From: Clostridia bacterium
GTDB lineage: Bacteria; Bacillota; Clostridia; Oscillospirales; Acutalibacteraceae
Assembly: GCA_017513525.1 (NCBI GenBank)
Contig: JAFXFC010000021.1
Location: 1-64,000 of the forward strand
Length of the DNA stretch: 64,000 bases
Direction: 5' to 3'
In this document: one piece after another, positions 6,625-25,437 of the stretch
Position numbering within the stretch: the stretch's first letter is position 1
Layout of the letters: the number at the start of each line of letters is the position of its first letter
Notes under the pieces: generated by a model
Database searches by the model: none
Seen by the model: only the letters and a program-made list of their open reading frames with translations
Told to the model about the DNA's origin: nothing
Position numbers and translations under genes: made by a program

Positions 6625-6652
6625 CTTAAGATTTGCTTAAGATAGCTTCTTA
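6625..6652 (-). promoter_or_regulatory. Candidate response-regulator box of 11-bp direct repeats
   Basis: On the + strand CTTAAG begins at 6625 and again at 6636, with a degenerate third copy (TTCTTAA) from 6647, giving an 11-bp period. OmpR/PhoB-family regulators bind direct repeats with this period. The array lies about 12 bases upstream of the weak -35 and overlaps the nagA stop codon, the usual place for an activating site. Binding by the adjacent regulator is inference. Confidence 0.45.
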
Positions 6653-7813
6653 ACTTTTTATGATCTTTCCGTTAACTGTGACAAAAGATACGTTGATATC
6701 CTCATCGAAAATGATAAGGTCTTCATCGTAGCCTTTTTCAATTCTACCTTTTGTTTTGTCACAACCAATTACTGAAAGGGGAGTAAGGCTTGCCATTTTA
6801 ACTGCATCAATAAGAGGAATTTTTGCCGTTTTTACCATGTTTCTTACAAGAACATTGCTTGTTGCAACACTTCCGGCAAGACAGGAGCGGTCAGCGAGCT
6901 TCATAACATTATCTTCATATAAAACTTCAAGTCCGTTTTCCTGTAATATAACGGTGCCTTCTTCCATATCAAGTGCGGAATATTCGAGTCCGTCGCTTAT
7001 GGCATAAGCTTTATCGGCACCCTTGGCCTTATATATTAGTTTTAATACACCGTAGGGGAGATGTCTTAAATCTGCGATAAACTGTGCCGAGTAGCCGTCA
7101 AGTGAAAGACCTGCCTCAACTACACCCGCATGGCGGAAAATACCAATTTTTCTCATTCCTGAGCACGCGGAATAAATATGTGTAACATCACTATAACCGT
7201 GAGAAAGTGCTTCCTCAGTATTGGAATAATCCCCGTCTGAATGAGCAACTGATGCTATGATACCTCTTTTTGACGCTTCTTCACCTACAAGGAAGCCGTT
7301 TTCGATTTCGGGGGCCGCACCGATTATTTTTATAATATCTGAGCTGTCGAGAAGCTCAGCGAGATTTTCTTTTGTCGGAACAAGAATATTTTCTGGGCTT
7401 TGTGCCCCCTTCATTTTCATTGAAATAAAGGGACCTTCAAGGTGTACACCGAGAATATTTGAATCGGTACAGATTTTCTGAGCTTCTTCTATATTTTTTA
7501 TTACCTTTTTAAGTTGTTCTATGGGAGCAGCAAGAGTGGTCGGAAGAATTGATGTTGTGCCTCTTAAAGCATGAGCAGTGCACATTTTTACTATATCTTC
7601 GGGTGAGCCCATAGCGGAATAACCGCCGCCGCCGTGAACATGAATATCTGCAAAGCCGGGAGAAAGATAATTTCCTTTACAGTCAATAATTTCGTTGCCT
7701 TCACTTTCATATTCTGAAACGATGTCAATAATTTTACCGTTTTCGGTAAGTACTGCTTTGTTTTCAATAATATCTGAGGGGGTTATAATTTTAGCGTTTA
7801 TATAAATTCTCAT
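6650..7813 (-). CDS. nagA: N-acetylglucosamine-6-phosphate deacetylase
   Basis: NagA removes acetate from GlcNAc-6-phosphate to give glucosamine-6-phosphate, the entry step of amino-sugar catabolism and cell-wall recycling. The 387-residue protein has the amidohydrolase metal motif in GFADIHVHGGGG, the conserved HLEGPFIS segment, HSDGDYS, THIYSACSGM, and the late catalytic-loop segment AISDGLEY. The length is normal for the family. A GAGGT ribosome binding site precedes the ATG. The gene is transcribed divergently from the GH109-like/kinase/GH4 cluster, which fits a shared role in N-acetylhexosamine use. nagB, the deaminase usually found with it, is not in the window. Confidence 0.93.
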   Translation of the reverse strand: MRIYINAKIITPSDIIENKAVLTENGKIIDIVSEYESEGNEIIDCKGNYLSPGFADIHVHGGGGYSAMGSPEDIVKMCTAHALRGTTSILPTTLAAPIEQLKKVIKNIEEAQKICTDSNILGVHLEGPFISMKMKGAQSPENILVPTKENLAELLDSSDIIKIIGAAPEIENGFLVGEEASKRGIIASVAHSDGDYSNTEEALSHGYSDVTHIYSACSGMRKIGIFRHAGVVEAGLSLDGYSAQFIADLRHLPYGVLKLIYKAKGADKAYAISDGLEYSALDMEEGTVILQENGLEVLYEDNVMKLADRSCLAGSVATSNVLVRNMVKTAKIPLIDAVKMASLTPLSVIGCDKTKGRIEKGYDEDLIIFDEDINVSFVTVNGKIIKS

Positions 7814-7948: not shown

Positions 7949-9217
7949 ATGAGTGCGGATAAAAAAATAAGAATCGGAGCTGTAGGTATAAGCGGAAGAG
8001 GTTCAGGTATGCTTGAATTGTTGCTTGCCGTACCCGGAGTAGTTTGTCCTGCAGTATGTGATAAATATGAAGACAGAGCCCAAAGAGGTATTGAAATTGT
8101 CAAGAACTCAGAAAGCTATGACGGATATGAGGTTAATTCATATCTTGATTATGAAGAAATGCTCAAAACTGAAAAGCTTGACGCTCTTGTTGTTTTTACA
8201 ACATGGATCACTCATTCAAAAATTGCAATTGCAGGTATGAATGCAGGACTTAATGTTGCTATGGAAGTAGGCGGTGCCGCTTCAATAGAGGAGTGCTGGG
8301 AGCTTGTAAGAACAAGCGAAAGAACGGGTAAGTTCTGTATGCTTCTTGAAAACTGCTGTTATGACAGAAATGAAATGGCAGTATTCAATATGGTTAAAAA
8401 AGGTCTTTTCGGTGAAATTGTTCACTGTGAAGGCGGTTACAGACATGACCTTCGTGATGAAATAAGTCTTGGCAGAGAAAACAGACACGGAAGACTTTAT
8501 AATTTCCAGAACAGAAACGGTGAATTATATCCCACTCATCAGTTAGGCCCCATTTCAAAGGTTCTCGGTATTAACCGCGGAAACCGTTTCCTTTCTCTTG
8601 TATCAATGGCAAGTAAATCAAGAGGACTTAATCAGTGGATCAAGGACAATAAGGGCGAAGACTATGATATTTACGGTTATGATTTTGCCTGCGGTGATGT
8701 TGTAACAACAATTATCAAGTGTGCTCACGGGGAAACAATTACACTTACGCATGACTGCTGTCTGCCGAGACCCTATACAAGAAACTACATGGTACAGGGA
8801 ACAAAAGGCGTTTTCACCGATGTTGAAGATGATGCAAGCTGTGCTATAGAAGGTGTTACCGAATCTACACACGATTGGACAAAGTTTGAAGATATCAGAG
8901 AAAAATATGATCATCCTCTCTGGTCACAATATGAAAAGGCAGGCGTCAAGGCAGGTCACGGCGGTATGGACTATCTGGTGCTTTCCGCTTTTGTTGAAGC
9001 AGCAATGCTTGGCAAACAGCCTCCCATTGATGTGTATGACACAGCAGCATGGATGGCAATTACATGTCTTTCCGAGCAGTCTGTTGCAATGGGCGGCATG
9101 CCTGTTCCCATACCCGACTTTACAAACGGTATGTGGATAGACCGTGAACCCTACAGACGCGGTGTTTACTGCCTTGAAGAGGTTTGCGAGGATTTTTTCA
9201 CTGATGAGGAGGAATAA
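7949..9217 (+). CDS. GH109-like (Gfo/Idh/MocA-fold) alpha-N-acetylgalactosaminidase
   Basis: The 422-residue protein has an N-terminal NAD-binding Rossmann motif (GAVGISGRGSGM) and a Gfo/Idh/MocA C-terminal domain. The segments ELYPTHQLGPISKVL, NRGNRFLSLVSM and SKSRGLNQW match the GH109 family, which cleaves alpha-linked GalNAc by an NAD-dependent oxidation-elimination mechanism. Known GH109 enzymes are usually exported; this one has no signal peptide, so it is predicted to act in the cytoplasm on imported glycans. It starts a tight cluster (3, 20 and 21 base gaps) with a hexosamine kinase, a GH4 enzyme and the propeller fusion. A simple sugar dehydrogenase is the main alternative. Confidence 0.78.
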   Translation: MSADKKIRIGAVGISGRGSGMLELLLAVPGVVCPAVCDKYEDRAQRGIEIVKNSESYDGYEVNSYLDYEEMLKTEKLDALVVFTTWITHSKIAIAGMNAGLNVAMEVGGAASIEECWELVRTSERTGKFCMLLENCCYDRNEMAVFNMVKKGLFGEIVHCEGGYRHDLRDEISLGRENRHGRLYNFQNRNGELYPTHQLGPISKVLGINRGNRFLSLVSMASKSRGLNQWIKDNKGEDYDIYGYDFACGDVVTTIIKCAHGETITLTHDCCLPRPYTRNYMVQGTKGVFTDVEDDASCAIEGVTESTHDWTKFEDIREKYDHPLWSQYEKAGVKAGHGGMDYLVLSAFVEAAMLGKQPPIDVYDTAAWMAITCLSEQSVAMGGMPVPIPDFTNGMWIDREPYRRGVYCLEEVCEDFFTDEEE

Positions 9218-9220
9218 AAT

Positions 9221-10156
9221 ATGAGCTTTTACATAGGAATTGACGGCGGCGGTACAAAAACACAGTATGCGCTGTTCAATGAAAAAAAGGAAATGCTCTC
9301 AACCGTTAAAACTACGGGAAGCAATCATGAAAATCTTGAGGGCGCAATTCCCGAAGCAGCAGGAATAATCATGGGCGGTATTAATGATTTGCTTTCTGAA
9401 AACAAACTCGCTCTTTCAGATATCAGCCATATTCTTATGGCACTTGCAGGAATCGACCATCAGTATCAGTGCGATGAAATGACAGAAGAACTTAAAAAAC
9501 TCGGTCTCAATGTTCCTTTCTCAATTTATAATGACGGCTTTATCGTTGTAAAAGCAGGGCTTACGGGAAAAGCAGGTATCGGCTATAACTGCGGAACAGG
9601 CACTTGCTGTAACTCTGTGGGCATTGACGGAAAGCTTCTTCAGGTGGGCGGCTTCGGTGAGCTCTCAGGTGATGTCGGCGGCGGTCACTGGATTGCAAGA
9701 CAGACCTTCGGAAAACTCTATGATGACATTTGCCTTAAAATCAAGCATACCGAAATGACAGATAAGATAGTTGAAAATTTCGGAATTACAGCAGACAGAG
9801 ACGGAGTACTGTCTTTGATAGCCGATATGGAAGAAGAGGGCGATGATATTGTAAGAGATATGCTTGATATCTTCTTTGAAGCTCTTAATAACAAAGATAC
9901 TGCAGCACTTGAAATTGCTGATGTTATGGCCCTAAGAGGAGCTCAGTTTATATGTGCTCACATAAGAAATCAGAAATTTGATGATGAAGTGATACAGGTT
10001 GTGCTTTCCGGCTCAATGCACTGTAAGCTTCCTTCTGATGTTTATGTAAATAAGCTCATTGCAAAAACCGAGGAGCTCAGCGGCAGAAAGCTCGAATTTA
10101 TAAAGCTTCAGGTAGCTCCCGTTATGGGATGTATCAACTGGATGCTTGAAGACTGA
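9221..10156 (+). CDS. N-acetylglucosamine kinase (BadF/BadG/BcrA/BcrD ATPase family)
   Basis: The 311-residue protein has the ASKHA phosphate-binding motif DGGGTKTQYALF at the N-terminus, a second phosphate motif GIGYNCGTGTCC, the segment GDVGGGHWIARQ, and an adenosine-type motif VVLSGSMHCK near the C-terminus. Family members phosphorylate GlcNAc (mammalian NAGK type) or related sugars. It lies three bases after the GH109-like gene and opposite nagA, so the likely role is to make HexNAc-6-phosphate from freed HexNAc for NagA. Whether GlcNAc or GalNAc is the main substrate cannot be decided from sequence. Confidence 0.82.
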   Translation: MSFYIGIDGGGTKTQYALFNEKKEMLSTVKTTGSNHENLEGAIPEAAGIIMGGINDLLSENKLALSDISHILMALAGIDHQYQCDEMTEELKKLGLNVPFSIYNDGFIVVKAGLTGKAGIGYNCGTGTCCNSVGIDGKLLQVGGFGELSGDVGGGHWIARQTFGKLYDDICLKIKHTEMTDKIVENFGITADRDGVLSLIADMEEEGDDIVRDMLDIFFEALNNKDTAALEIADVMALRGAQFICAHIRNQKFDDEVIQVVLSGSMHCKLPSDVYVNKLIAKTEELSGRKLEFIKLQVAPVMGCINWMLED

Positions 10157-10176
10157 TAAGAAAGAAGGAAATAGCG

Positions 10177-11460
10177 ATGAAAGAAATTAATGTTACCGTT
10201 ATAGGTTCAGGCAGTACTTATTGTCCCGAGCTCGTTGACGGATTTTTACAGAGACAGGATTCTCTCAAATTAAAGCGTCTTGTTCTTATGGATATTGATG
10301 ACAGAAAGAGAAATATTGTAGGCTCTCTTTGCGAAAGAATGATAAAGGCTGCAGGTATGGATACCGAGGTTGTTATGACAGATAATCTTGACGATGCTCT
10401 TCCCGGTGCAGATTTCGTTGTAACTCAGATTCGTGTAGGTAAGCTTCCTTGCAGATATCTTGATGAATCTATTCCTGTAAAATACGGTCTTATCGGACAG
10501 GAAACCACAGGTATCGGCGGCTTCTTTAAGGCTCTTCGTACTATTCCTGTTATCGGTAACATCTGTAAGAAAATTGAAGAGCTTTGTCCCGATGCATGGC
10601 TTATCAACTTTACCAATCCCTCAGGTATCATCACAGACTTTGTTCTTAATAACACAAATGTTAAGTGCATAGGGCTTTGCAATGTGCCCATTGATATGAT
10701 TGATGATGTTAAAGAAGCAGTAGGCGAGGATGCAGATGTTACATATCTCGGACTTAATCATTTAAGCTGGATAACTTCCGTTATGAAGGATGGCGAGGAT
10801 GTTCTTTATAAGCTTTTTGACGAAGGCTTTGCTCCAAAGGTAATGGCAAACATTGTTGATGACGGTTTTGATCCTGACTGTCTTCGTGCCTGCGGCGGTT
10901 GGCCCTCATCATATCTTCAGTATTACTACAATCGTGAAGATAAAATCAAGCATCTTAAAGAGGACAAAAAGAGCCGTGCACAGGTTTGTATGGATATCGA
11001 GGAACAGCTTCTTAAAATGTATCAGGATGAAGAGCTTTGCATAAAGCCGGCTCTTCTTGATAAGCGCGGCGGTCATAAGTATTCTCTTGCAGCCTGCTCA
11101 CTTATTGATTCTATCGCAAATGATATAAACGATGTTCATGTAGTAAATGTTCTCAATAACGGAACACTTCCCTTTATGAAGGATGATGATGTTGTTGAAG
11201 TAGCAGCTCGTATCGGCGCAGACGGTGCAAAGCCCGTGCCCGTAAGAAAGACATGGAATCGTCATATAGAAGGACTTATGACAGTTGTTAAAACTTATGA
11301 AAAGTACACTGTTGAAGCTGGTATGAATGGTGATGATCGTGCCGCATATAATGCAATGATGGTTCATCCTCTTATCGGTGATTTCAAAAAAGCCCGTGAT
11401 TGTTATGAAGAAATGAAGGATGCCCACAGAGAGTTTTTACCTCAGTTTCTCGGAAAATAA
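10177..11460 (+). CDS. GH4 family 6-phospho-beta-glucosidase-like enzyme
   Basis: GH4 enzymes hydrolyse phosphorylated or free glycosides by an NAD- and divalent-metal-dependent redox mechanism. The 427-residue protein shows the NAD-binding VIGSGSTYCPELVDGF, the LIGQETTGIGGFF segment, NFTNPSG, the metal-ligand Cys in GLCNVP, and the metal-ligand His in LNHLSWI. These features fit the 6-phospho-beta-glucosidase group. In this cluster the substrate may be a phosphorylated HexNAc-containing disaccharide, which is inference. No PTS component is encoded nearby, so the source of any 6-phosphorylated substrate is unclear; the upstream kinase is one candidate. Confidence 0.85.
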   Translation: MKEINVTVIGSGSTYCPELVDGFLQRQDSLKLKRLVLMDIDDRKRNIVGSLCERMIKAAGMDTEVVMTDNLDDALPGADFVVTQIRVGKLPCRYLDESIPVKYGLIGQETTGIGGFFKALRTIPVIGNICKKIEELCPDAWLINFTNPSGIITDFVLNNTNVKCIGLCNVPIDMIDDVKEAVGEDADVTYLGLNHLSWITSVMKDGEDVLYKLFDEGFAPKVMANIVDDGFDPDCLRACGGWPSSYLQYYYNREDKIKHLKEDKKSRAQVCMDIEEQLLKMYQDEELCIKPALLDKRGGHKYSLAACSLIDSIANDINDVHVVNVLNNGTLPFMKDDDVVEVAARIGADGAKPVPVRKTWNRHIEGLMTVVKTYEKYTVEAGMNGDDRAAYNAMMVHPLIGDFKKARDCYEEMKDAHREFLPQFLGK

Positions 11461-11481
11461 AACTTAAGGTGGAAAAAATTT

Positions 11482-13584
11482 ATGAGTTTTTATTCTCTTA
11501 AAACAAAGAAAACTCCTCAGAAGGTACGGACACTTTTTACTGTAGGAAAAGGACTTCCTTGTGATAGTGTGACACGCCTTGCTTACGGAAAAGACGGAGT
11601 ATTATTCGCAGGTACTGAAAAAGGACTTGCATATTTTAACGGTAGTGAATTCTCTGTTCTTGAGGGAATTACAGAAAAGGTCACAGCACTATATTTTTCA
11701 AAAAATGATATATTATATGTCGGAACACCTGTTTCTGTATATACCGTAAAAGAGTTTGTTGTTACAGGCAGACAGGAGTTTCCTGATTCCGTAGTAGATA
11801 TAGCAAGGGACTCAAACGGTGATATATGGCTTGCAACTGTCAGCACCTGCTATAAGCTTACTGACGGTGTGTTTAACAGATTTCAGCGATTTGATTTTGA
11901 AAGCACTCATTGTATGACTGCATTCGGTGACAGAGAAGTCTTTGCTGCTTGTGATAAGGCACTTTTAGTGCTTCACGGAAAACGTCCCCGTTGGAGTACA
12001 CTTATTCCGGGTATGTGCAAAGCCCCCTCGGGTATAAGAACACTTTCAAGCGATTCACTCGGATATGTGTGGGTAGGTACCAATGAAGGTGTTTATCTTT
12101 ATGACGGAAAAAGTGAGTGGATAACTCCCTCAGAGTTTGATTTCTTCCCGAAGTGTCCCATAAACAGAATTGTTTTCGGTTCTGACGGCACTTTCTATTT
12201 CGCAACAGAAATCGGTCTTTATGTTGTAAACGGCTGGAAAACGAGATTTTTAGGAAAGGGCAGATATCTTGCTTCCGAAAAAGCTATTGATGTGGCTGTT
12301 AAAGAAGATAATAGTGAATATTGGATAGCAACCGATAAGGGACTTTCAAGAATTGAGCTCAGAATGATGTCGCTTTCCGAAAAGGCAGCGTATTATGAAA
12401 GCAAAATGCCATGCTTTAACAGAGAAGATTATTATGCGGGGGCTTATATGTCCGATATTTCCGTTCCTTTGGAAGAAAGCACAAATGAGATTTCCGATAA
12501 TGACGGATTGTGGTCTGCTTTATATCTTGGTGCATTATGCTTCAAATATAAAAAGACAGGTGATATTGCTGCAAAAGAACAGGCAAGAAAAACAATGAAG
12601 GCACTTCTCAAGCTTCAGAATATTACCGGCATCAGCGGTTTCCCTGCACGTGCTTACCGCCGTCCCGGAGAACATCGTTTTGGTGACGGACACCACGAAT
12701 GGCATCGTGTTGAGGATGAAAAGGGTCCTCTTGAATGGAAGGGCGAAACCTCCTCGGATGAGCTTGTAGGTCATTATTTCGCAGCTGCTTATTATTCGGA
12801 TATGATAGCAGATGATGATGAGAAAAAGGAAATTGCAGAGTCAATAAAGAGGATAACAGATCATCTGATTGCTAACGGCTACACCCTCTGTGATGTTGAC
12901 GGACTTCCCACAACATGGGCTCATTTCGGTCCGCAGGAACTCAATGATGAAGAGCTTTGGTGTTGGGAAAAGGGCATTAATTCTCTCGAACTGATTGCAT
13001 TTATGCGAATTACAGAGCATCTTACAGGTGATGATAAATACGGTGCAATTGCAGATGAACTTATAAAGAAGCATCATTACGGAATGAATCTTCTTATGTA
13101 TAAGCGTTATGACAGCTATGCTAATCATATCGATGATCTTCTCGGTATTCTTTCAATTCTGCCGTTACTCGAATATGAGAAAAATCCCGATATGAGAAGA
13201 TATCTTCTTTTAGCGCTCAGACGTCATTATAATTATGAAAAGATTGAGCATTATCCGCTTTTTGCTTTTGCAAACGCGCTTTATACGGGCGGTCACGCTA
13301 ATATCGAAGAATGTATCGAAACACTTGAGGATTATTCTCTTGATTTGCTTGATTATAAGACTGATCACACGATCCGTCCCGATGTGGAAATAAATTACGG
13401 TCCCGAGGAATTCGGTGACGGTCCTCAGGCACTTCATGCGTTTCCTGCTGACGAAAGAGTTCTCGGCTGTCTTTCTTATGAAGCATTCTGTATAAAAGGC
13501 GGATACGATACAAGATATATTGAACCCTCCGAATGGCTTCTTAATTACTGGATGGGTGTATATTACGGAATGATAGAAGAATAA
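11482..13584 (+). CDS. Cytoplasmic beta-propeller fused to an alpha/alpha-barrel domain
   Basis: The 700-residue protein has two parts. Residues about 15-295 form repeated blades with the pattern of two-component-regulator propeller repeats (for example GVLFAGTEKGLAYFNG, YVWVGTNEGVYLYDG, EYWIATDKGLSRIE). Residues about 310-700 are helical and resemble an (alpha/alpha)-barrel hydrolase-like domain, with conserved-looking SSDELVGHYFAAAYYSD, GLPTTWAHFGP, WCWEKGINSLELIAFM and a Tyr/His-rich tail. There is no signal peptide or membrane segment, unlike most propeller sensors, which are periplasmic. It is the last gene of the amino-sugar cluster. Enzymatic activity is not established; a glycan-binding hydrolase or lyase is the main guess. 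Confidence 0.6.
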   Translation: MSFYSLKTKKTPQKVRTLFTVGKGLPCDSVTRLAYGKDGVLFAGTEKGLAYFNGSEFSVLEGITEKVTALYFSKNDILYVGTPVSVYTVKEFVVTGRQEFPDSVVDIARDSNGDIWLATVSTCYKLTDGVFNRFQRFDFESTHCMTAFGDREVFAACDKALLVLHGKRPRWSTLIPGMCKAPSGIRTLSSDSLGYVWVGTNEGVYLYDGKSEWITPSEFDFFPKCPINRIVFGSDGTFYFATEIGLYVVNGWKTRFLGKGRYLASEKAIDVAVKEDNSEYWIATDKGLSRIELRMMSLSEKAAYYESKMPCFNREDYYAGAYMSDISVPLEESTNEISDNDGLWSALYLGALCFKYKKTGDIAAKEQARKTMKALLKLQNITGISGFPARAYRRPGEHRFGDGHHEWHRVEDEKGPLEWKGETSSDELVGHYFAAAYYSDMIADDDEKKEIAESIKRITDHLIANGYTLCDVDGLPTTWAHFGPQELNDEELWCWEKGINSLELIAFMRITEHLTGDDKYGAIADELIKKHHYGMNLLMYKRYDSYANHIDDLLGILSILPLLEYEKNPDMRRYLLLALRRHYNYEKIEHYPLFAFANALYTGGHANIEECIETLEDYSLDLLDYKTDHTIRPDVEINYGPEEFGDGPQALHAFPADERVLGCLSYEAFCIKGGYDTRYIEPSEWLLNYWMGVYYGMIEE

Positions 13585-13623
13585 AAAAATTGCAGGACAC
13601 AAAAAGTGTCCTGCAATTTTTTT
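13583..13623 (+). terminator. Strong terminator of the amino-sugar cluster
   Basis: An 18-base A-rich arm at 13583-13600 ending GCAGGACAC pairs fully with GTGTCCTGC plus a T run at 13606-13623, with a five-base loop. The symmetrical A and T runs mean it can also serve the convergent gene ending at 13629. Confidence 0.9.
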
Positions 13624-13628
13624 GAATG

Positions 13629-14063
13629 CTACTGATTGATAAAACTTTTCAGCTGATTATAAAATTCAAGTGTTTCTTCATTAGTTTCTTTGCTTATAAC
13701 AAGCACTTTTTTGTTAATGTCTGTTATAGCAATACATGAAGTGCATTTTGTGTAAGAATATCTTAAATATTTGCCGAAGGCATCGTTTTCGAATACGCCC
13801 ATCAACAACTTCATTGAGCCGAAGCCGGATGTTCTTGAGCCTTTTGAGTCTGTTTCGGTATACTCAATTGATTCAATATCCTTTAATAATACTGAATACT
13901 CAGACCAATACGGGGAAGATATTTCAAGTTTTTCTTCATTTACAGAAAACTCAATTTTTCCCGTGTTGGTTATTAATAACACGAAAGAAAAAATCACAAG
14001 AAGAAAAACGGCAACAAAAATATTAACTTTTTTATCAAAGGATGAAAGCTTTTTATCTGCCAT
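13629..14063 (-). CDS. Membrane-anchored PH-like domain protein
   Basis: The 144-residue protein has an N-terminal membrane helix (about residues 14-34, VNIFVAVFLLVIFSFVLLI) followed by a beta-rich domain with alternating hydrophobic residues and a C-terminal helix, the layout of bacterial pleckstrin-homology-like proteins. No catalytic motif is seen. It follows the GH78 gene by seven bases, so it is the third gene of a lacZ-GH78 operon. A function is unknown; a link to glycan use rests on position only. Confidence 0.5.
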   Translation of the reverse strand: MADKKLSSFDKKVNIFVAVFLLVIFSFVLLITNTGKIEFSVNEEKLEISSPYWSEYSVLLKDIESIEYTETDSKGSRTSGFGSMKLLMGVFENDAFGKYLRYSYTKCTSCIAITDINKKVLVISKETNEETLEFYNQLKSFINQ

Positions 14064-14070
14064 AATTTTT

Positions 14071-16227
14071 TTATTTGATGGTGATTTCTCCCGTAACCTC
14101 TGTTTTTATATTTCTGTTGCCTTTGCTGTCAGTTGAAATATCAACAGTTATATCTCCCCATTTTGTTCTCATTGTACCTTTGACATTTTTGAGTTCAGCG
14201 ATATTTGCGGGATTTATTGTGATTTCTTTATAGCCGGCTTTATCTTCCAATCTCTTAATACCAAGAATATCGCTGAAGAAATATTCTACTATTGCGCCGA
14301 ACATGGGATGACATCTTGAATCACAGCCGTCCCAATTTTCCCAAAGAGTAGTAGCACCGTGCTTTTTCATATTGTAAAAGGATGTTATTTCTTCATTAAT
14401 AAGAAGCTTGAAAGCAATATCACCTTTACCGAGACTAAATAACATTCTTATAACAAGGTCAGTTCCGAAAATACCCGTATCGAAGGTGAGAAGAGAAGAA
14501 TATTTATTGATAAAATTATTTCTTGTTCTTTCATCGCCAAGACCAATATCAAGAGCGAAGGCATCTGCGCCCTGCTTTCCTTCACAGAAGCTGCCTGTCG
14601 CTTGATCATAAAAATGTCTGATAATCGCTTTTTTGCATTTTTCTGATAATTCATTATAGAAAGTTACTTCATCTGTAATACCTAAAATTTCAGCAGTTTC
14701 TGCAGTCATTTCGGCGCACTTTGTGAGGAAGTATGTATTAACAAAGGCTTCGGGAATAGTGACCTTGTTTCCGAGAGGACACCAGTCACCGAGACACCAA
14801 CCACCCGGTTCTTCACTTGTGACAATGCCGTCTTCACAGTGGTTTATCATATATTTCAGATATGCTTTCATGGAATCATAAGATTCCTCTAAAATTGAAA
14901 TATCATTATAGAACTTATAGTATCTGTAGGGGACAATACAAGCTGCACCGCCCCAGCCGCCGGGACCTCCGCCACCTCCGTAGAAGGGTGCCGTGTGTTG
15001 AACATGACCGCCGACTTTATCCTGACAGTCTCTGATATCAGCCATCCACTTTTTATACATTTCTCTTGCATCAAAAACGCTCATTACAGCGCCGCAAGTC
15101 AGTTGTCCGTCACCTGTATATCCCAAGCGTTCTCTGTGAGGGCAGTCTGATGGAATACAGCCGTGAATATTGGCATTCTGTGTTTTTACATAAGCGTCAA
15201 ATATCCACTGAAGAGTTTCATTATCGCAGGTAAAATCAGATATCTTCTTAATATCTGTCTGTATAACTCGGTATTCTTTTATATGGCAAATTCCCGTAAC
15301 TTCAATGTATCTTGCTGCATGCCAGGTAAAATGCGGATGAAACTCCTGATCTTTTGCATTCATATCATAAACAAAATGGTCTCTCTGCATTCTTGAAGTG
15401 CCGCCGCAGTAATGGAACTGTAAGCTGCCGTCCTCGTTCAATTCATCTGCATAGCGAAGAGTTGCTCTCTCGTTGTTTCTTGCATTTTCATCAAAGACAA
15501 GAACAGCATAGCCTGCCGCAAGTTCACCGATATCATAAATTTTTGTGTCACCGAATTCATAAATCACTTTCGGTTCGATTGTTCTTATAACCTTATCAGA
15601 GGGGAAGAAGCATTGCTCTAAAACGGTTTCGGGAGGTGTTCTTACTTTTGAATTTTCCCAAGAACTGTCGTCAAATTCAGCAGTTTTCCAACCAATCGGA
15701 TAAAGTCTGGCATCGTGATATTCTCCGTAATAAAGGCTTGTTTCAAGAATATAACTTTTTCTCCATTTTGTGTTATCGGAAGATGAGTTTATAAATGTAA
15801 CATTTCCGTTATTATCGGTAAGTTTAATCGAAAAGACAAGTGTGTTATCTCCCCAGTAAGGCATTCCCTCATTGGGACTTTCGTGCTGACCGTACCAACC
15901 GGCACCGATATGAGCTGCAAGAATGTTGCTGCTGTCTGTGAGGGAAGATGTAATATCATACTTGTAATAATAAATTCTATGTGAAAGCGTGTCAAAAATA
16001 GGCATATGTATCTTTGAAAGATCTCGCTTTTCATAATCTGTCATTGCAGGGATAAAATGCTCGTCAGATACTCTTTTCCCATTTATATATGCCTCAAAAT
16101 AACCGAGTGCAGTAATATAAAGCGTGGCTTCTTTGATATCGTTGCAGCAGAATGCTGTTCTCGTAAGAACAGCATCCATACCGGGATAGGTGAGCCAAGA
16201 GCAATTCTTGAAAATTTCAGAACTCAT
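14071..16227 (-). CDS. GH78 alpha-L-rhamnosidase
   Basis: GH78 enzymes release terminal L-rhamnose from plant glycosides and polysaccharides. The 718-residue protein has the family layout: an N-terminal beta domain, then an (alpha/alpha)6 barrel with the hallmark DCPHRERLGYTGDGQ carrying catalytic acidic residues, followed by YKKWMADIRDCQ and the conserved GATTLWENWDG segment, and a C-terminal beta sandwich. No signal peptide is present, so it is predicted to be intracellular. It starts four bases after the lacZ stop and its ribosome binding site overlaps the lacZ end, so the two are co-translated. Confidence 0.9.
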   Translation of the reverse strand: MSSEIFKNCSWLTYPGMDAVLTRTAFCCNDIKEATLYITALGYFEAYINGKRVSDEHFIPAMTDYEKRDLSKIHMPIFDTLSHRIYYYKYDITSSLTDSSNILAAHIGAGWYGQHESPNEGMPYWGDNTLVFSIKLTDNNGNVTFINSSSDNTKWRKSYILETSLYYGEYHDARLYPIGWKTAEFDDSSWENSKVRTPPETVLEQCFFPSDKVIRTIEPKVIYEFGDTKIYDIGELAAGYAVLVFDENARNNERATLRYADELNEDGSLQFHYCGGTSRMQRDHFVYDMNAKDQEFHPHFTWHAARYIEVTGICHIKEYRVIQTDIKKISDFTCDNETLQWIFDAYVKTQNANIHGCIPSDCPHRERLGYTGDGQLTCGAVMSVFDAREMYKKWMADIRDCQDKVGGHVQHTAPFYGGGGGPGGWGGAACIVPYRYYKFYNDISILEESYDSMKAYLKYMINHCEDGIVTSEEPGGWCLGDWCPLGNKVTIPEAFVNTYFLTKCAEMTAETAEILGITDEVTFYNELSEKCKKAIIRHFYDQATGSFCEGKQGADAFALDIGLGDERTRNNFINKYSSLLTFDTGIFGTDLVIRMLFSLGKGDIAFKLLINEEITSFYNMKKHGATTLWENWDGCDSRCHPMFGAIVEYFFSDILGIKRLEDKAGYKEITINPANIAELKNVKGTMRTKWGDITVDISTDSKGNRNIKTEVTGEITIK

Positions 16228-16231
16228 AATT

Positions 16232-19200
16232 TTAGCCTTTCGTAGGGATTATTGTGAAGCTGAATTCCATTACTTTGTCAGCATTCAGTCTGAATTCCTC
16301 TCTTGTGTCGGGACCGCAGCTTGAAGAACCGATACCTCTTGTAAATCCGTCTATAGTAAGATATGTAGTATTCATATCCCTCAAATCTTCCTGATGCTCA
16401 GCTTTATTAATGGCAGACTGACTCTGGTGATGAACGCTGAAATTAAAGGGAGAGTCACCGAAGAATGCTACCGTGTTATAACCGTCAGAGAGCTTCAGCC
16501 ATCTAGTATCGCAGTGCATACCGTTTTCCTGCGGATATACATATGGCTCATACATATCTGCAACTTTTGATTCATAGATGCCTACAGGTGCGTGAGCTTT
16601 GAAGTCGGGCATATTTTCAGCCTCGCCTCTGCCGAAATATTTAGCAGTGTCAAAGCTTCTGTCAAGCTCAAGCGTTACGCCGAAACGGGGTATATCAGAA
16701 ACTGCTTCGGGAGCAAGTTTCCTTAACACTGTCTTTATTTCCATTGCACCGAGAGAAGATATCACATACTTAATAAACCAGCTGTACATTGCCTTTCTCT
16801 TGTGCTTCATTGTATATAAAACATCAATTTCTATTTCGCCGTCTTCAATTGAAGCGGAGAAGTGTTCGAGATTCTTTTTGAGCCTGTCGAGGCCTCCCTC
16901 AGCCCAACTATCACGCATTCTTGCATCGTTATCAATTAATGCTCTGTAGAGATTAAGATTGATACCTTTGTTTTCAGCAGGATTTTGATTGAGAAGCTCT
17001 TTACCGTTTACTATATAGGAGGTTAATTCACCTGTTGAGCCGTCAAAGATTGCCTTGCCGTTATCGTAAACAACAGTCAGAATACCGTTTTCGGATTCTG
17101 CAGAAATTTTGCTTCCGATCTCAATATCATATTCACAGTCGGAAACAGCAAGCTCAATTTGCTCAATTGCAATTTCAAGTTCGGTTTCCTTGTCAGTATA
17201 AATGAAGTTTATGTAACAGTCGTCACCAAGAGTCACAGCAATGTCGGAAAGCTTGACATCTATTGATTTCATCGGCTCTATATTTAAGTCAATTTTGCCG
17301 GTAAGGGTAGTTTCACCGTTAATCTGATAATCGTATGTCACAGCTATATATGAGGAGTCACGGAAACGATTAGTGTTTGTAAATGTAAATGTACCGTCAC
17401 CCTTATATTCTGCTCGAATGGGTCTGTAAACCACTTTCATACACTTAGCGCCTGTGTGAAGTCTTCTGTCTGCATACATAAGACCGTCAACGCAGAAATG
17501 ACCGTCATGCTGCTTTTCGCCATGGTCACCGCCATAGGTATATTTATACTTATATTTCTTATCGTTTTCATCGTGGAAAACAGTATGATCAGCCCATTCC
17601 CAGATACAGCCACCCATTGAATTATCCCATTTATAGAAAAGATCCCAGTATTCTTCAAGATTACCGGGGCCTACGCCCATTGCATGTGCATATTCACAGA
17701 GATAGAAGGGATATTTTGAATATTCCTTACAAAGATACTTTTTATCGTCATATTCTCTTATGCGTTTACCTTTGATCATCTGTTCAATTTCTTCGGTGCT
17801 TGTATACATCTCGGAAATAACATCATAATGGAAACGCTTTGTTCTTACAACACCTTCATAATGAACGGGAACAGTCGTACCTGTGCTCTTTAAGAACTGA
17901 TAACACTTATCGTGACATTTATATCCGCCCGATTCGTTACCGAGTGACCACATGATAATTGACGGGTGATTTCTGTCGCGGTAATACATACGCTTTACTC
18001 TGTCAACATAATGCTTTGCCCATTTAAGATCCATACTGAGATGGCTTACATCGTCAAACATTTCACCGCAGCCGTGTGTTTCAATATCAGCTTCATCAAT
18101 GACATAAAGACCGTATAAGTCGCACAGTGTTATAAAATAGGGGTCGGGAGGATAATGCGAGGTTCTGACACCGTTACAGTTAAGCTCTTTCATGAGTTTA
18201 ATATCTCTTTCCATATCACTGAGTGACATGGCATATCCCTTATAAAGATCGGTATCATGGTGATTTACGCCTTTAACTTTTATAGGTCTGTCATTAACAT
18301 AGAAAACAGCATTTTCAATTTTTATTGTTTTGAAGCCAATAAAGCTTCTGAGAGTCATACATTCTTTACCGTCTTTTATAACAGAAAGATAAAGGGTATA
18401 GCAGACAGGAATTTCTGCATTCCATTCAGTTACATCTAAATCGGTAAATTTGATAGTTTCTTCGCCGGCAGCTTCTTTTACAGCGATAACATTTTTATCT
18501 TTATCATAAATTTCAGCTTTTACGGTACAGTCCTTGTTTTCACCGAGCTCAGTATTTACTGTGAGGTCATAGCCTTTATCAGTTTTATTTGTTTCAGTAT
18601 AAAAATCATATATATAGTTTTCGGGATAATTGTAAAGAAGAACATCTCTGAATATACCGTTTTCTCTGAACATGTCCTGTGCTTCAAGGAAAGTACCGTT
18701 GCACCATTTGAACATTACAACTACGATTTCGTTGATTCCTTCATTTAGAATAGCTGTAATATCAAATTCAGCAGTGTTGTGTGAGCCTTCAGAATAACCG
18801 ACAAATTTACCGTTAACATAAAGTGAAAGGTTATTTGAAACACCGAGGAAGGATATGATATGCTTGGAGCAAAGTTCAGAAATTTCAATTGTTTTTCTGT
18901 ATATTCCAACAGGCATATCCTGAGGGATCTCAGGTGCAATAGTTTTGATCTCATACGGACAATTAAGATAAACAGGCTCCTGATAACCGGTTCTTTGCCA
19001 ATCACAGGGAATAGTTACTGTGTTGAATTTTGTCTTAAGAGTATCGAGCTTATCAGGTACATCATTAATTGATTTATAGAATTTGAAATTCCATTCACCT
19101 GAAAGAACACTTACCATATCTGAGGTATAACGTTCCTCTTTGAAACATGTATCTTTCAGTGTATCGGCATTTTTATATGCAACAGCATATGCTCTGGGAA

Positions 19201-19273
19201 AAAGCTTATTCTTTTCAAAAACTGAAAAATTATTGTGAATATTCTTAATTATCTGATATTTCACATCTGACAT
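16232..19273 (-). CDS. lacZ: GH2 beta-galactosidase (LacZ type)
   Basis: The 1013-residue protein has the five-domain LacZ layout: a jelly-roll sugar-binding domain (WQRTGYQEPVYLN), Ig-like domain, TIM barrel with acid/base Glu in WSLGNESGG and nucleophile Glu in YLCEYAHAMG, a second Ig-like domain, and the C-terminal super-sandwich. It hydrolyses terminal beta-galactosides. No signal peptide is seen. The start is uncertain: the first ATG at 19273 directly abuts the AAAGG ribosome binding site, so the GTG three codons later (19264) has better spacing and may be used. It leads an operon with GH78 and the PH-like protein. Confidence 0.93.
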   Translation of the reverse strand: MSDVKYQIIKNIHNNFSVFEKNKLFPRAYAVAYKNADTLKDTCFKEERYTSDMVSVLSGEWNFKFYKSINDVPDKLDTLKTKFNTVTIPCDWQRTGYQEPVYLNCPYEIKTIAPEIPQDMPVGIYRKTIEISELCSKHIISFLGVSNNLSLYVNGKFVGYSEGSHNTAEFDITAILNEGINEIVVVMFKWCNGTFLEAQDMFRENGIFRDVLLYNYPENYIYDFYTETNKTDKGYDLTVNTELGENKDCTVKAEIYDKDKNVIAVKEAAGEETIKFTDLDVTEWNAEIPVCYTLYLSVIKDGKECMTLRSFIGFKTIKIENAVFYVNDRPIKVKGVNHHDTDLYKGYAMSLSDMERDIKLMKELNCNGVRTSHYPPDPYFITLCDLYGLYVIDEADIETHGCGEMFDDVSHLSMDLKWAKHYVDRVKRMYYRDRNHPSIIMWSLGNESGGYKCHDKCYQFLKSTGTTVPVHYEGVVRTKRFHYDVISEMYTSTEEIEQMIKGKRIREYDDKKYLCKEYSKYPFYLCEYAHAMGVGPGNLEEYWDLFYKWDNSMGGCIWEWADHTVFHDENDKKYKYKYTYGGDHGEKQHDGHFCVDGLMYADRRLHTGAKCMKVVYRPIRAEYKGDGTFTFTNTNRFRDSSYIAVTYDYQINGETTLTGKIDLNIEPMKSIDVKLSDIAVTLGDDCYINFIYTDKETELEIAIEQIELAVSDCEYDIEIGSKISAESENGILTVVYDNGKAIFDGSTGELTSYIVNGKELLNQNPAENKGINLNLYRALIDNDARMRDSWAEGGLDRLKKNLEHFSASIEDGEIEIDVLYTMKHKRKAMYSWFIKYVISSLGAMEIKTVLRKLAPEAVSDIPRFGVTLELDRSFDTAKYFGRGEAENMPDFKAHAPVGIYESKVADMYEPYVYPQENGMHCDTRWLKLSDGYNTVAFFGDSPFNFSVHHQSQSAINKAEHQEDLRDMNTTYLTIDGFTRGIGSSSCGPDTREEFRLNADKVMEFSFTIIPTKG

Positions 19274-19348
19274 CCTTTCATAATAAGGTTAAATATATGC
19301 TATCATAATATGAAATTAATAACAACAGTTTTTTCATATTTATTTTAT

Positions 19349-19377
19349 TTGACAAATATCTTTTTTTGTATAATAAT
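19349..19377 (+). promoter_or_regulatory. Promoter of the lipoprotein-HAD-GH127 operon
   Basis: TTGACA at 19349-19354 is followed by AATAAT at 19372-19377 with 17-base spacing; a better TATAAT hexamer at 19369-19374 overlaps it at only 14 bases. The leader is about 25 bases. Confidence 0.6.
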
Positions 19378-19407
19378 GTATAGGTAATCAAATCAGCGGA
19401 GGTACAT

Positions 19408-20151
19408 ATGAAAATCAGAAGAATTTCAGCTTTAATAACAGCCCTTTTTTTATTATCAGTTTCTTGTTTGACATCATGTGATAAAGCACCCGAAGAAATT
19501 GAAAGCAGTACGGGGTATGAATATATTCCTTCAGGGCAGGAGAGTACCACTGTATCCGATAATACTGATCTTCAGAAAGAGATTAAGATAGATACTTCCT
19601 GGCAAAAGAATTTTACAGTGAAGTACAGTTATTATAATCCCGAGCAAAGTATTACAACTATGAAGATAGAAGAAAAAAAATCCGCAAATGCTTTTACTGT
19701 TGAATATCTTGATACGGGATCACTGCTATATTATAAAGCAAACGGTAATGATACAGATTATTATGTTATAATTGATAATGAAGATGAACAGGTCCATTCT
19801 GTTTTAGAAGGTAAAAAGTTCAGCTCTCTTTCCAGCATGTTTATGAAGCTCTCTGTCCTCAGTCCTGAGCTTCCTACACAAAGCAATGTGCTTTATATGT
19901 ATGAAGAAGCTGTTGCGGGAAGACCCTGTCATAAATATATCCAAAGAGCTTATTCTGACGGAAAGCTTACTGAATCTGTTTATGTATGGGTTGATGCCCA
20001 GTTTGGTTTTGCGGCTAAGTGTGAAGCATATGATGCAGAAGATAACCTTACCGTAATGTGGGAGGTTGAGAGTTTTTCTGAAGGAGATCTTCAAGACTCA
20101 GATGTGTTTATTGATTTAACAGAATATACATTTAAGGAGGAAATAGGATGA
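19408..20151 (+). CDS. Predicted outer-face lipoprotein
   Basis: The 247-residue protein has a lipoprotein signal peptide with lipobox LTSC, giving lipidated Cys24, followed by a Ser/Thr/Glu-rich linker. The mature part is beta-rich, with segments FTVEYLDTGSLLYYKANG and ESVYVWVDAQFGFAAKCEA resembling an outer-membrane-lipoprotein-sorting-type (LolA/LppX-like) fold, but this is a weak resemblance. It shares four bases with the HAD gene (ATGA overlap) and is in an operon with GH127. The role is unknown; a surface ligand-binding function is possible. Confidence 0.7.
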   Translation: MKIRRISALITALFLLSVSCLTSCDKAPEEIESSTGYEYIPSGQESTTVSDNTDLQKEIKIDTSWQKNFTVKYSYYNPEQSITTMKIEEKKSANAFTVEYLDTGSLLYYKANGNDTDYYVIIDNEDEQVHSVLEGKKFSSLSSMFMKLSVLSPELPTQSNVLYMYEEAVAGRPCHKYIQRAYSDGKLTESVYVWVDAQFGFAAKCEAYDAEDNLTVMWEVESFSEGDLQDSDVFIDLTEYTFKEEIG

Positions 20152-20717
20152 ATGTCTACGATTTTGATAATACCATTTATAGAGGCGAAAGTGTCCTGCA
20201 TTTCTTTTTCTTTTATATAAAAAAGACTCCTTATCTTTTGAAGTATATACCTAAGGTTTTTCACGCTTTGCTGAAATATAAGGCAGGTAAAGTGACTGTC
20301 GAACAGGCACTTGAGGAATATGCACCTTTTGTAGAAGACTATTTTAAGAATATTTCAGACCTTAAAGCCGATTCGGTTGAATTCTGGGATAAACACATGC
20401 ACAATATCAAGCCTTTCTATAAAGAAATTCAAAAAGAAGATGATGTTATAGTTACTGCTTCTCCCATAAATACAATGCAAGAGGTATGCAAAAGGCTGGG
20501 TATTAAGCATTGCGTCGGCAGTATAATTGACGAAGAAACCGGAAAAATTACAAGGCTTTGTATGCGTTCAAGAAAGGTTCCTGCTTTTCTTGAAGCATTT
20601 CCCGAAGCGCATATAGATAATTTTTATACGGATTCTCCTAAGAATGATGCTCCGCTTATAGAACTTGCCGATCATGCTTTTGTTGTTAAAGGCGATAAAA
20701 TTACGCAAATTAAATAA
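20148..20717 (+). CDS. HAD superfamily (subclass IB) phosphatase
   Basis: The 189-residue protein starts with the HAD nucleophile motif DFDNTIYRGES, has the motif II Ser/Thr in VIVTASPINT, and motif III/IV in YTDSPKNDAPL. A helical cap of about 60 residues after the first motif is typical of the phosphoserine-phosphatase-like IB group. The substrate cannot be read from the sequence. It overlaps the lipoprotein gene by four bases and is followed 10 bases later by GH127, so a sugar-phosphate substrate is possible but not shown. Confidence 0.82.
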   Translation: MNVYDFDNTIYRGESVLHFFFFYIKKTPYLLKYIPKVFHALLKYKAGKVTVEQALEEYAPFVEDYFKNISDLKADSVEFWDKHMHNIKPFYKEIQKEDDVIVTASPINTMQEVCKRLGIKHCVGSIIDEETGKITRLCMRSRKVPAFLEAFPEAHIDNFYTDSPKNDAPLIELADHAFVVKGDKITQIK

Positions 20718-20727
20718 GGTGAGTTAC

Positions 20728-22560
20728 ATGGAAAAGTTGACACCTGTATCTTTTAAAAATGTTAATATAAAAGATGGATTTTGGAAAAGAAGAATGGATA
20801 TAAATGAAAAGGTCACAATTTTTTCTGTCCGTGACCGTTTTCGTGATACGGGAAGATTTGAAGCATTCAAATTTAATTGGAAAGAAGATTCTGATGTTCC
20901 GAAACCTCATATTTTCTGGGATTCCGATGTTGCGAAATGGATGGAAAGTGCTGCTTACATAATTGCAAAGAATCCTAATTCTGAGCTTCAGGCGGAACTG
21001 GAAGAATTAATATCTCTTATGAAAAAAAATCAGTGCGAAGACGGATATTTTAATATTTTTCACACCGTTGTTCAATCCGAAAACAGATTTATGATAAGAG
21101 ATAATCATGAACTGTACTGTTTGGGGCATTTTATTGAAGCTGCCGTAGCATATTATATGGCAACAGGAAAAGAAAATCTTATTAATATTGTTGATAAATA
21201 TATTGACCTTGTTATAAGGATTTTCTGTGTAGATAAAAGTGCTGCATTTATGACACCGGGGCATGAAGAAATAGAGCTCGCACTTATTAGACTTTACAGG
21301 TTAAAAAAAGATAAAAAATATCTTGACCTAGCTATGTTTTTTATCAACGAAAGAGGAGTGCGGGAAGAACAGCTTACTTCTTGGTCTAACAGTTCATACA
21401 ATCAGAGCCATATTCCCGTAAGACAGCAAAAAGAAGCAATGGGACACTGTGTAAGAGCTTGTTATTTATATTCTGCAATGGCGGATGCGGCAAGAGAAAC
21501 AGATGATTCTGAATTGCTTGAAGCCTGCAAGAATTTATTTGAAGATATCGTCAATAAGAAAATGTATATAAGCGGCGGTATCGGATCTAGTCACCATGGT
21601 GAAGCCTTTACTGTTGCGTATGATCTTCCTAATGACACTGCTTATGCTGAGACTTGTGCTTCAATTGCTCTTATGATGTTTGCCGACAGAATGAAGGATA
21701 TAGTGCTTGATTCTCGTTATGCCGATATTGTTGAAAGAGAGATATATAACGGTATTATTTCAGGTATCTCACTTGACGGCAAGGCGTTTTTCTATGAAAA
21801 TCCGCTTGAAATAGATCTTTGTGACAGATACAGACATACATCTGTTATTAACGCCAATGAAAGACTGCCGATAACACAAAGACAGGAGGTTTTCAGCTGT
21901 TCATGCTGTCCTCCGAATATGACAAGATTTATTGCAACAATTGGCGAACATATTTTTTCAACCGATGAAAATTCGTTGTATGTTCATCAATTTATTCCAT
22001 GTAATGCCGATTTCAACGGAATAAAGGTAGAGGTAAGCACCGAATATCCCTCAAAAGGAAATGTCAGAATTTCTGTTTCAGGAGCTAAAGGAAAGTCTGT
22101 ATATATAAGAATTCCGGGTTGGTGTAAAAAGTTTGAAGCATCAGAAAATTATGAAATTTGCGGCGGTTACGCAAAATTTTTTGTTGATGAAGATGCAATA
22201 GAGCTTGAAATTAACATTCCGATAATTCCACGGTTTTATGCAAGTTCTTCTTTTGTAAGAGCAGATGCGGGCAAACTTGCATTAATGTGTGGTCCGGTGC
22301 TTTACTGTGCAGAACAGATTGATAATGATGTAAAAATATCGGATATACGTTTAGATACAAAAGTAAAGCCTGAAATTGAATTTAACAGCTTTTTTGGATG
22401 TAATATCCTGAAAATGAAGGCATACAAAACAAAAGACAGCCAATCGCTTTATATTCCTTTGGATGAATTCAGCGAAGAAGAAACATCTGTAACGCTAATA
22501 CCGTATTTCGGTTTCGCAAACAGAGGCGAAAGTGATATGGCCGTATGGCTCAAAAAGTAA
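20728..22560 (+). CDS. GH127 beta-L-arabinofuranosidase
   Basis: GH127 enzymes release L-arabinofuranose from plant hydroxyproline-rich glycans using a zinc-bound cysteine nucleophile. The 610-residue protein has the key residues: Glu308 and Cys310 in AYAETCASIA and the pair Cys393-Cys394 in FSCSCCPPNMTRF, matching the zinc site of the characterised enzyme HypBA1. An (alpha/alpha)6 barrel followed by C-terminal beta domains is consistent with length. The start chosen is the ATG at 20728 because AAGGTGAG lies just upstream; an in-frame upstream codon lies inside the HAD gene. No signal peptide is present, so it is intracellular. Confidence 0.92.
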   Translation: MEKLTPVSFKNVNIKDGFWKRRMDINEKVTIFSVRDRFRDTGRFEAFKFNWKEDSDVPKPHIFWDSDVAKWMESAAYIIAKNPNSELQAELEELISLMKKNQCEDGYFNIFHTVVQSENRFMIRDNHELYCLGHFIEAAVAYYMATGKENLINIVDKYIDLVIRIFCVDKSAAFMTPGHEEIELALIRLYRLKKDKKYLDLAMFFINERGVREEQLTSWSNSSYNQSHIPVRQQKEAMGHCVRACYLYSAMADAARETDDSELLEACKNLFEDIVNKKMYISGGIGSSHHGEAFTVAYDLPNDTAYAETCASIALMMFADRMKDIVLDSRYADIVEREIYNGIISGISLDGKAFFYENPLEIDLCDRYRHTSVINANERLPITQRQEVFSCSCCPPNMTRFIATIGEHIFSTDENSLYVHQFIPCNADFNGIKVEVSTEYPSKGNVRISVSGAKGKSVYIRIPGWCKKFEASENYEICGGYAKFFVDEDAIELEINIPIIPRFYASSSFVRADAGKLALMCGPVLYCAEQIDNDVKISDIRLDTKVKPEIEFNSFFGCNILKMKAYKTKDSQSLYIPLDEFSEEETSVTLIPYFGFANRGESDMAVWLKK

Positions 22561-22566
22561 AAATTT

Positions 22567-22595
22567 AAGCCTACCCGAATTCGGGTAGGCTTTTT
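22567..22595 (+). terminator. Terminator after GH127
   Basis: A perfect palindrome at 22567-22592 (AAGCCTACCCGA with TCGGGTAGGCTT) is followed by a T run. It lies seven bases after the stop and may also serve the convergent gdhA. Confidence 0.9.
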
Positions 22596-22609
22596 ACATT
22601 ATATTACGC

Positions 22610-23953
22610 TTATACAATTCCCTGTTCAAGCATTGCCTGTGCGACTCTCTTGAAGCCTGCAATGTTTGCACCTGCTACAAGATCATAACCAAGTCCGTAT
22701 TCCTCTGCACATTCAGCGGAAACATCATGGATATGCTTCATAATTTCGTGAAGCTTATTATCGACCTTTTCAGCTGACCACATATATCTTGCAGAGTTCT
22801 GGCTCATTTCAAGAGCAGATACAGCAACACCGCCTGCATTAACTGCCTTAGAGGGAGCAACTGCTTTACATCTCATCTGAAGATATTTAAGAGCATCGTT
22901 TGTTGTAGGCATATTTGAAACTTCGATATAATACTGAGTACCGTTAGCAACAATCTTCTTTGCCTGTGCAATATCGACCTCATTCTGAGTAGCACAGGGC
23001 ATAACAATATCAGCTTTAACGCCCCAAGGTTTTTTGCCGGGTATAAATTCAACGCCGAACTTCTTAGCATATTCATCGATAGTTAAATTTTCTGAACGCA
23101 TTTTAAGCATAAAATCGAGTTTTTCGGGAGTGTTAACACCGTCGGGATCATAAATATAACCTGTGGGATCTGAAAGTGTGACAACTTTTGCTCCGAGCTG
23201 AGACATTTTCTTTGCAACACCCCATGCAACATTGCCGAAACCGGAAATTGCAACTGTTTTTTCTTCAATGGAATCCTCATAATGCTTAAGTACTTCCTGG
23301 AGATAATAAACAGCACCGTAGCCTGTAGCTTCTGGACGGATAAGAGAACCGCCGTAAGAAAGTCCTTTACCTGTGAGAACACCGTTTTCAAATGTAGCCT
23401 TAATTCTCTTGTATTGACCGAATAAGTAACCGATTTCTCTGCCGCCGACACCGATATCACCTGCAGGAACGTCAACATCAGGTCCTACATATCTGTAAAG
23501 CTCTGTCATAAAGCTTTGGCAAAAACGCATGATTTCTGCATCACTCTTACCGATAGGATCAAAGTTAGAACCACCCTTTGCACCACCGATAGGAAGTCCT
23601 GTAAGAGAGTTTTTGAAGGTCTGTTCAAATCCGAGGAACTTGATAATACCGGAATAAACACTGGGATGGAAACGAAGACCGCCCTTATAGGGACCTATAG
23701 CAGAATTAAACTGATAACGATAACCTCTGTTTACCTGAACATTGCCGTTGTCATCTACCCATGTCACACGGAAGGAAACAGCTCTGTCGGGTTCAGTCAT
23801 TCTCATAAGAATGTCATTTTTTTCATATTCGGGGTGAGCATTTATAAGAGGTTCAATAGAAGTAAAAACTTCTTCGACCGTCTGAATAAATTCAGGCTCA
23901 TGTGCATTTCTGATTTTTACATTTTCAATAACTCGTTCGATATAGGGATTCAT
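22610..23953 (-). CDS. gdhA: NADP-specific glutamate dehydrogenase
   Basis: The enzyme interconverts 2-oxoglutarate plus ammonia and glutamate and is the main ammonia-assimilation route in many gut Clostridia. The 447-residue protein has the catalytic-lysine segment LTGLPIGGAKGGSNFDP, the conserved DVPAGDIGVGGREIGYLFG, a Rossmann motif AISGFGNVAWG and the closing ANIAGFKRVAQAML. Length and motifs fit the hexameric NADP type. AGGAGGT precedes the ATG. It is monocistronic with its own promoter at 24071-24099. Confidence 0.95.
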   Translation of the reverse strand: MNPYIERVIENVKIRNAHEPEFIQTVEEVFTSIEPLINAHPEYEKNDILMRMTEPDRAVSFRVTWVDDNGNVQVNRGYRYQFNSAIGPYKGGLRFHPSVYSGIIKFLGFEQTFKNSLTGLPIGGAKGGSNFDPIGKSDAEIMRFCQSFMTELYRYVGPDVDVPAGDIGVGGREIGYLFGQYKRIKATFENGVLTGKGLSYGGSLIRPEATGYGAVYYLQEVLKHYEDSIEEKTVAISGFGNVAWGVAKKMSQLGAKVVTLSDPTGYIYDPDGVNTPEKLDFMLKMRSENLTIDEYAKKFGVEFIPGKKPWGVKADIVMPCATQNEVDIAQAKKIVANGTQYYIEVSNMPTTNDALKYLQMRCKAVAPSKAVNAGGVAVSALEMSQNSARYMWSAEKVDNKLHEIMKHIHDVSAECAEEYGLGYDLVAGANIAGFKRVAQAMLEQGIV

Positions 23954-25434: not shown

Positions 25435-25437
25435 GTC

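Follow-up and report, generated by a model that had tools for sequence, protein, structure and literature searches.

A seven-bladed propeller fused to a predicted alpha/alpha toroid at the end of an amino-sugar operon: a candidate family of carbohydrate-active enzymes

The propeller–toroid ORF closes an amino-sugar operon

The window, i.e. the whole stretch of 64,000 nucleotides that was analysed, comes from a Clostridia bacterium. It contains at 11482–13584 (plus strand) an intact open reading frame of 700 aa with an ATG start, hereafter the propeller–toroid ORF. Three genes precede it on the same strand: the first gene of the operon, for a GH109-like protein of the Gfo/Idh type with a YPTH motif (7949–9217); a gene for a BadF/BadG-type sugar kinase (9221–10156), N-acetylglucosamine kinase-like and below the NCBIfam cut-off; and, directly upstream of the ORF, a gene for a GH4 enzyme with a CNVP motif (10177–11460). 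The gaps along this order are 7, 24 and 25 bp. YPTH is the catalytic pair of GH109, and CNVP marks the 6-phospho-β-glycosidases within GH4. The nagA gene, for N-acetylglucosamine-6-phosphate deacetylase (6650–7813, minus strand; above the NCBIfam cut-off), is divergent from the operon.

The order GH109-like/kinase/GH4/ORF is also found in L004, L005, L006, L052 and L056. Two further loci (L053 and L055) have the GH109-like and GH4 genes without the kinase, another gene lying between. L052 and L056 additionally carry DHDPS-family and YdjC genes, and L056 has three tandem copies of the ORF behind GH4 (8063–14605) together with a GPH-type transporter gene. The DHDPS-family gene was considered as an N-acetylneuraminate lyase and this was dropped, the gene being closer to dapA and below every cut-off. 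The original prediction had placed the ORF at the end of an amino-sugar operon; the short gaps between the genes and the retention of their order in relatives bear this out. Further glycoside hydrolase genes lie at 14071–28589, of GH78-type, GH2, GH127 (20665–22560) and GH38 (25500–28589), so the window is a wider glycan-degradation region.

One propeller and one predicted helical domain

The N-terminal half of the ORF (residues 1–295; 11482–12366, plus strand) is made of Reg_prop-type repeats that form one seven-bladed propeller. Reg_prop (PF07494) matches residues ~20–295 with 53.3 bits for a Pfam gathering cut-off of 20.4, and matches all 32 members of the clade I alignment. Seven repeats of about 40 aa are readable, approximately at residues 24–62, 64–100, 102–140, 141–178, 183–222, 226–263 and 267–296 (borders set by eye). 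The off-diagonal self-similarity of this half is 35.3, against 21.7 ± 1.3 in 200 shuffles (maximum 26.7). The C-terminal half gives no repeat signal (27.8 against 25.8 ± 1.4 in shuffles); it is the toroid domain (residues 296–700; 12367–13581, plus strand), helical by prediction and matching no family by sequence. The proposed fusion of a two-component-type propeller to a helical domain is thus supported.

The N-terminus of the ORF shows neither a hydrophobic segment nor a signal peptide. The cytoplasmic location originally proposed therefore stands for the protein of the window, but it does not hold family-wide, as relatives of 871 aa and ~1740 aa have signal-peptide-like starts.

Structure prediction, proposed for both halves, was fair for the propeller and poor for the toroid. 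In the full-length AlphaFold model, built on a four-sequence alignment, the block pLDDT is mostly 70–95 in the propeller, which Foldseek matches to the periplasmic propellers of BT4663, BT4673 and BT3049, and ~35 in most of the C-terminal half. A low-confidence AlphaFold model of the toroid has a pLDDT of 46 and a pTM of 0.52, with the helical hairpins in the right order; the other toroid models also have a mean pLDDT of 46 or less. Given these values, fold and pocket rest mainly on helix order and conservation. Relative to the ortholog L004, dN/dS is 0.14 for the propeller and 0.04 for the toroid, indicating purifying selection on both.

Distribution and architectures of the family

The protein belongs to a real family: 300 genomes from its own bacterial family were searched, and 57 of them gave a match, some by the propeller only. 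Toroid profiles matched 9 of 245 genomes of the order and 6 of 391 of the class; in two samples of the phylum (398 and 299 genomes) they found only the genome of origin. A contig scan, able to detect close relatives only, returned three orthologs in Oscillospiraceae/Clostridia metagenome-assembled genomes, one of them from water deer caecum. Scans with different alignments gave no relative in viral contigs, and the toroid was not found in phages and plasmids. A match on a Treponema plasmid was rejected: it is a sensor-like propeller protein, and a query with the toroid alone finds nothing there. The genome of the window itself encodes a full-length paralog (L007, 36%) and a third, shorter one (L008).

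The members of clade I (about 690–745 aa) combine the seven-repeat propeller with the toroid; in the 560-aa, 600-aa and 730-aa types the N-terminal part is short. Searching 17 short relatives with a clade I profile of the last two blades (residues 224–294; 12151–12363, plus strand) gave a match immediately in front of the toroid, at E ≤8.5e-5, in 14 of them; among 340 shuffled controls the best value was 3e-5 and the next 0.005. The last two blades thus accompany the toroid. Since the 600-aa and 560-aa relatives share the toroid motifs and keep these two blades only, the full propeller is not a requirement of the family. The original suggestion that the propeller positions the glycan is not supported, and as a requirement it could not apply to every member. 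The tree is unrooted, and gain and loss of blades are therefore indistinguishable in it.

Larger forms also occur. The 871-aa type (L079:9265–11877 and L080:8391–11009) starts with a signal-peptide-like segment; its gene is followed immediately by a metallophosphatase-family gene in L080 and has one nearby in L079. Two genomes of a distant family encode secreted ~1740-aa proteins (L158:8428–13641 and L159:10539–15785) whose start is signal-peptide-like. These combine a Big_2 domain with two toroids, and blade-like repeats precede each toroid. SLH-type and SIS-type genes, annotated in L158 and arranged alike in L159, lie upstream of them; L159 also encodes a second toroid protein of 1195 aa. 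One member, L149 (G927:C359:1500–3293), has a single in-frame TAA within the toroid match and is either a pseudogene or affected by an assembly error.

Genomic contexts of the relatives

At seven loci (L008, L051, L077, L078, L082, L084 and L087) the gene for the 600-aa type immediately precedes a GH38 α-mannosidase gene, with gaps from -37 to 28 bp between the two. Near a further gene of this type (L066) a mannose-6-phosphate isomerase gene is found two genes upstream. When members linked to GH109/GH4 and members linked to GH38 are compared with each other on the tree, one change explains each group, and each forms one side of a branch. Other clade I members adjoin a glgB, GH2 or GH13 gene, or unrelated genes; several full-length members have LytB-S1, ClpB or NAPRTase genes as neighbours. 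Given these mixed contexts, only two subfamilies have a strong link to sugars.

At L057:5991–8063 a LytB (IspH)-S1 fusion gene lies directly upstream of two tandem propeller–toroid genes, and L059 has the same order with one copy. L061:6982–19500 and L068:1488–10198 hold propeller–toroid genes and share clusters c44–c46, with a glgB-type gene nearby in L068; this is possibly a glycogen operon.

The toroid compared with known families

Protein and profile queries with the toroid gave no match above cut-off in Pfam (2025), NCBIfam (2026), PHROGs or the 2026 PDB sequences. In the literature covered, to which subscription journals contributed little, we found no description of an architecture joining this propeller to a toroid. 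By sequence the toroid family is uncatalogued in Pfam, NCBIfam and the PDB, and the match to a characterised family that would have refuted the original prediction was not seen in these three databases.

We then compared the toroid by hhalign with locally built alignments; these are small, and the percentages shift with the query. The GH127-like family came first at 79% (89% with the all-types alignment), followed by the N-acylglucosamine 2-epimerases (AGE) at 42%, GH127 at 10%, GH88 at 2%, GH76 at 1.4%, GH125 at 0.4% and C5-epimerase at 0.3%. With ten unrelated local families as controls no value exceeded 0.7%; GH78, which is an α/α enzyme too, gave 1.5%. A query profile from the more diverse set lowered GH127-like to 43% and AGE to 10%. 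The GH88, GH76, GH125 and C5-epimerase profiles, at best about 5%, were discarded. Comparisons among known toroid families in the same set-up gave values from 0.8% to 97% (99.8% for GH127 against GH127-like, which are one family), so the match of the toroid corresponds to an ordinary distance between families. A weak resemblance to (alpha/alpha)6 enzymes, with which the original prediction had proposed a comparison, is present.

Comparisons of the low-confidence toroid model agree with this. Foldseek returned cellobiose 2-epimerases at the top, then AprG, GH76, GH88, PL2 and GH9, none below E 0.03. VIA gave Z values of 9.5–11.8, flat over lyases, epimerases, mannosidases, GH116 and LanC, and these were left out of the choice of a family. 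The matches of both programs are mostly alpha/alpha-toroid carbohydrate enzymes. Together, profile and model comparisons support assignment of the toroid to a predicted (alpha/alpha)6-type carbohydrate fold class and decide no family.

Invariant residues concentrate in four loops

In the 32 members of clade I, 42 toroid positions are invariant. Thirty of them fall in four loop segments (toroid positions 36–50, 88–134, 170–208 and 236–259) that precede alternate long helices in the helix order of the weak model; the four helical segments between and after these loops hold five. The conserved loop residues are SDNDG, AR, TSSDE, PTTWA and one Asp. The DNDG motif (residues 339–342; 12496–12507, plus strand) stands before the first long helix. 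In TSSDE (residues 423–427; 12748–12762, plus strand) D426 and E427 are conserved in all types except for one D-to-E change, and D551 (13132–13134, plus strand) is invariant in all types.

Conservation across all types includes K301, R314, D339, N340, D341, G342, G386, R390, S424, S425, D426, E427, W479, D551, R632, Y689 and W690, among others; the diverse set (A7) adds T423, with H431 and H461 at 90% or more. E496 becomes D in most other types, and E406 and E418 are restricted to clade I. Acidic and polar residues are thus retained between types that are only 22–30% identical, and mapping the acidic ones, as had been proposed, singles out D339, D341, D426, E427 and D551. No invariant or near-invariant Cys was seen in the 32 clade I sequences or in a set of 24. 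This loop conservation is the pattern of an active-site cleft, from which we infer a putative pocket on the weak model; invariant polar residues, whose lack would have refuted the original prediction, fill its loops.

Proposed function and alternatives

The reading that we prefer, and to which we give an even chance, is that the protein is an enzyme acting on carbohydrates in the cytoplasm, from a family of alpha/alpha toroids that is uncatalogued; most likely it is a glycosidase trimming an imported amino-sugar oligosaccharide. The toroid would bind the sugar in the cleft of loops preceding alternate helices. Some of the conserved carboxylates (D339, D341, D426, E427, D551, E/D496) would provide acid/base chemistry, H431 being a further candidate. 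The products may then be phosphorylated by the kinase, cleaved by the GH4 and GH109-like enzymes and deacetylated by NagA. Judged from the operon alone, the substrate could be an amino-sugar oligosaccharide, perhaps 6-phosphorylated. The universal conservation of several acidic residues and the presence of glycosidases as neighbours favour hydrolysis, as does the lack of the second His of an epimerase.

The two-blade relatives argue for the last two blades being the structural base: as a small beta-subdomain they would pack against the toroid. In the present subfamily five further blades would close a ring, which may enlarge the substrate site or have a part in assembly. A wider proposal, possible though rather doubtful in our view, is that the active site is shared by the alpha/alpha toroid and a blade-made beta subdomain, either two blades or the full seven-bladed ring, the amount of propeller tuning the glycan: amino sugar beside GH4, mannose beside GH38, and secreted forms with Ig-like domains.

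Four other readings were weighed. A sugar 2-epimerase or isomerase, working in the manner of N-acylglucosamine or cellobiose 2-epimerases before the kinase or NagA step, is unlikely. It has for it the second-best profile match (AGE), in which the NPGH stretch of AGE aligns with TSSDE..GH431, the conservation of H431 in the diverse set and the non-significant top rank of cellobiose 2-epimerase in Foldseek. Known AGE-type epimerases use two catalytic histidines, however, and no second His after H461 is conserved across the family; the AGE match also drops with the more diverse query. Membership of the toroid in a family of glycoside hydrolases or lyases that CAZy or the literature already describes would escape the databases and journals covered here, but we find it distinctly unlikely, as the Pfam, NCBIfam and PDB releases gave no match and the architecture was not found in papers.

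A non-enzymatic role, as a glycan-binding, scaffold or coat-like protein, also has an argument in its favour. Membrane-coat-like proteins are built in this way, from a propeller and an alpha-helical repeat domain (PMC2799638), and several members sit in housekeeping contexts. The invariant carboxylates, Arg and Trp of the loops, the strong constraint on the toroid and the repeated glycoside hydrolase neighbours nevertheless make this role improbable. Least probable is an exolytic polysaccharide-lyase-like enzyme eliminating uronic acid from an imported disaccharide: glycosaminoglycan lyases take the top VIA rows (PL17 alginate lyases stand lower) and N340, R390 and Y689 are universal, but the Z values are flat over many families on a poor model, the best conserved loops lack a universal His/Tyr pair, and uronate-catabolic genes were not recognised in the operon.

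If the toroid is catalytic, it would define an unnamed conserved enzyme family of Oscillospiraceae-like bacteria from gut and rumen, encoded in operons for the processing of amino sugars and mannosides. The two-blade, seven-blade and tandem secreted forms offer a natural series on how another fold stabilises a partial propeller and on whether such a propeller helps to bind substrate.

Comparison with known systems

The hybrid two-component sensors of Bacteroides (BT4663, BT4673, BT3049) share the Reg_prop repeats; in sequence they match the N-terminal half best, and in fold they rank among its closest matches. They have two propellers, a membrane segment, a kinase and a signal peptide; the ORF has one propeller, none of the rest and a helical enzyme-like domain instead. 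With neither a hydrophobic N-terminus nor a kinase or regulator domain found, it is not a hybrid two-component sensor.

For the toroid, GH127 and GH127-like enzymes (PF07944) are the best profile match, 79–89% for GH127-like and 10% for classical GH127, and are likely of the same fold class; PF07944 itself reaches 12.8–15.2 bits, below its gathering cut-off of 24.9. GH127 carries zinc-binding cysteines; having no conserved cysteine, the toroid lacks this site. AGE and cellobiose 2-epimerases (PF07221) have a similar 'D.dG.P...E..TGD.kY' stretch, but the toroid has a conserved counterpart (H431) of only one of the expected catalytic histidines, and PF07221 is absent from the families listed up to E 0.1 for the 32 members and from those up to E 10 when the toroid is queried by itself. 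The unsaturated glucuronyl hydrolases GH88/GH105, alpha/alpha enzymes of the cytoplasm, carry acidic residues where the inner helices start; their profile match to the toroid is at most 2.3% with the clade I and diverse profiles.

At the level of the operon, the nearest known arrangement is that of the chb-type N,N'-diacetylchitobiose operons (GH4 ChbF, YdjC/ChbG), which share with the present loci the GH4 CNVP motif, YdjC (in two relatives) and NagA. Here, in contrast, a kinase accompanies GH4 and no PTS genes were seen, while the GH109-like and propeller–toroid proteins are additions without counterpart in the chb-type operons.
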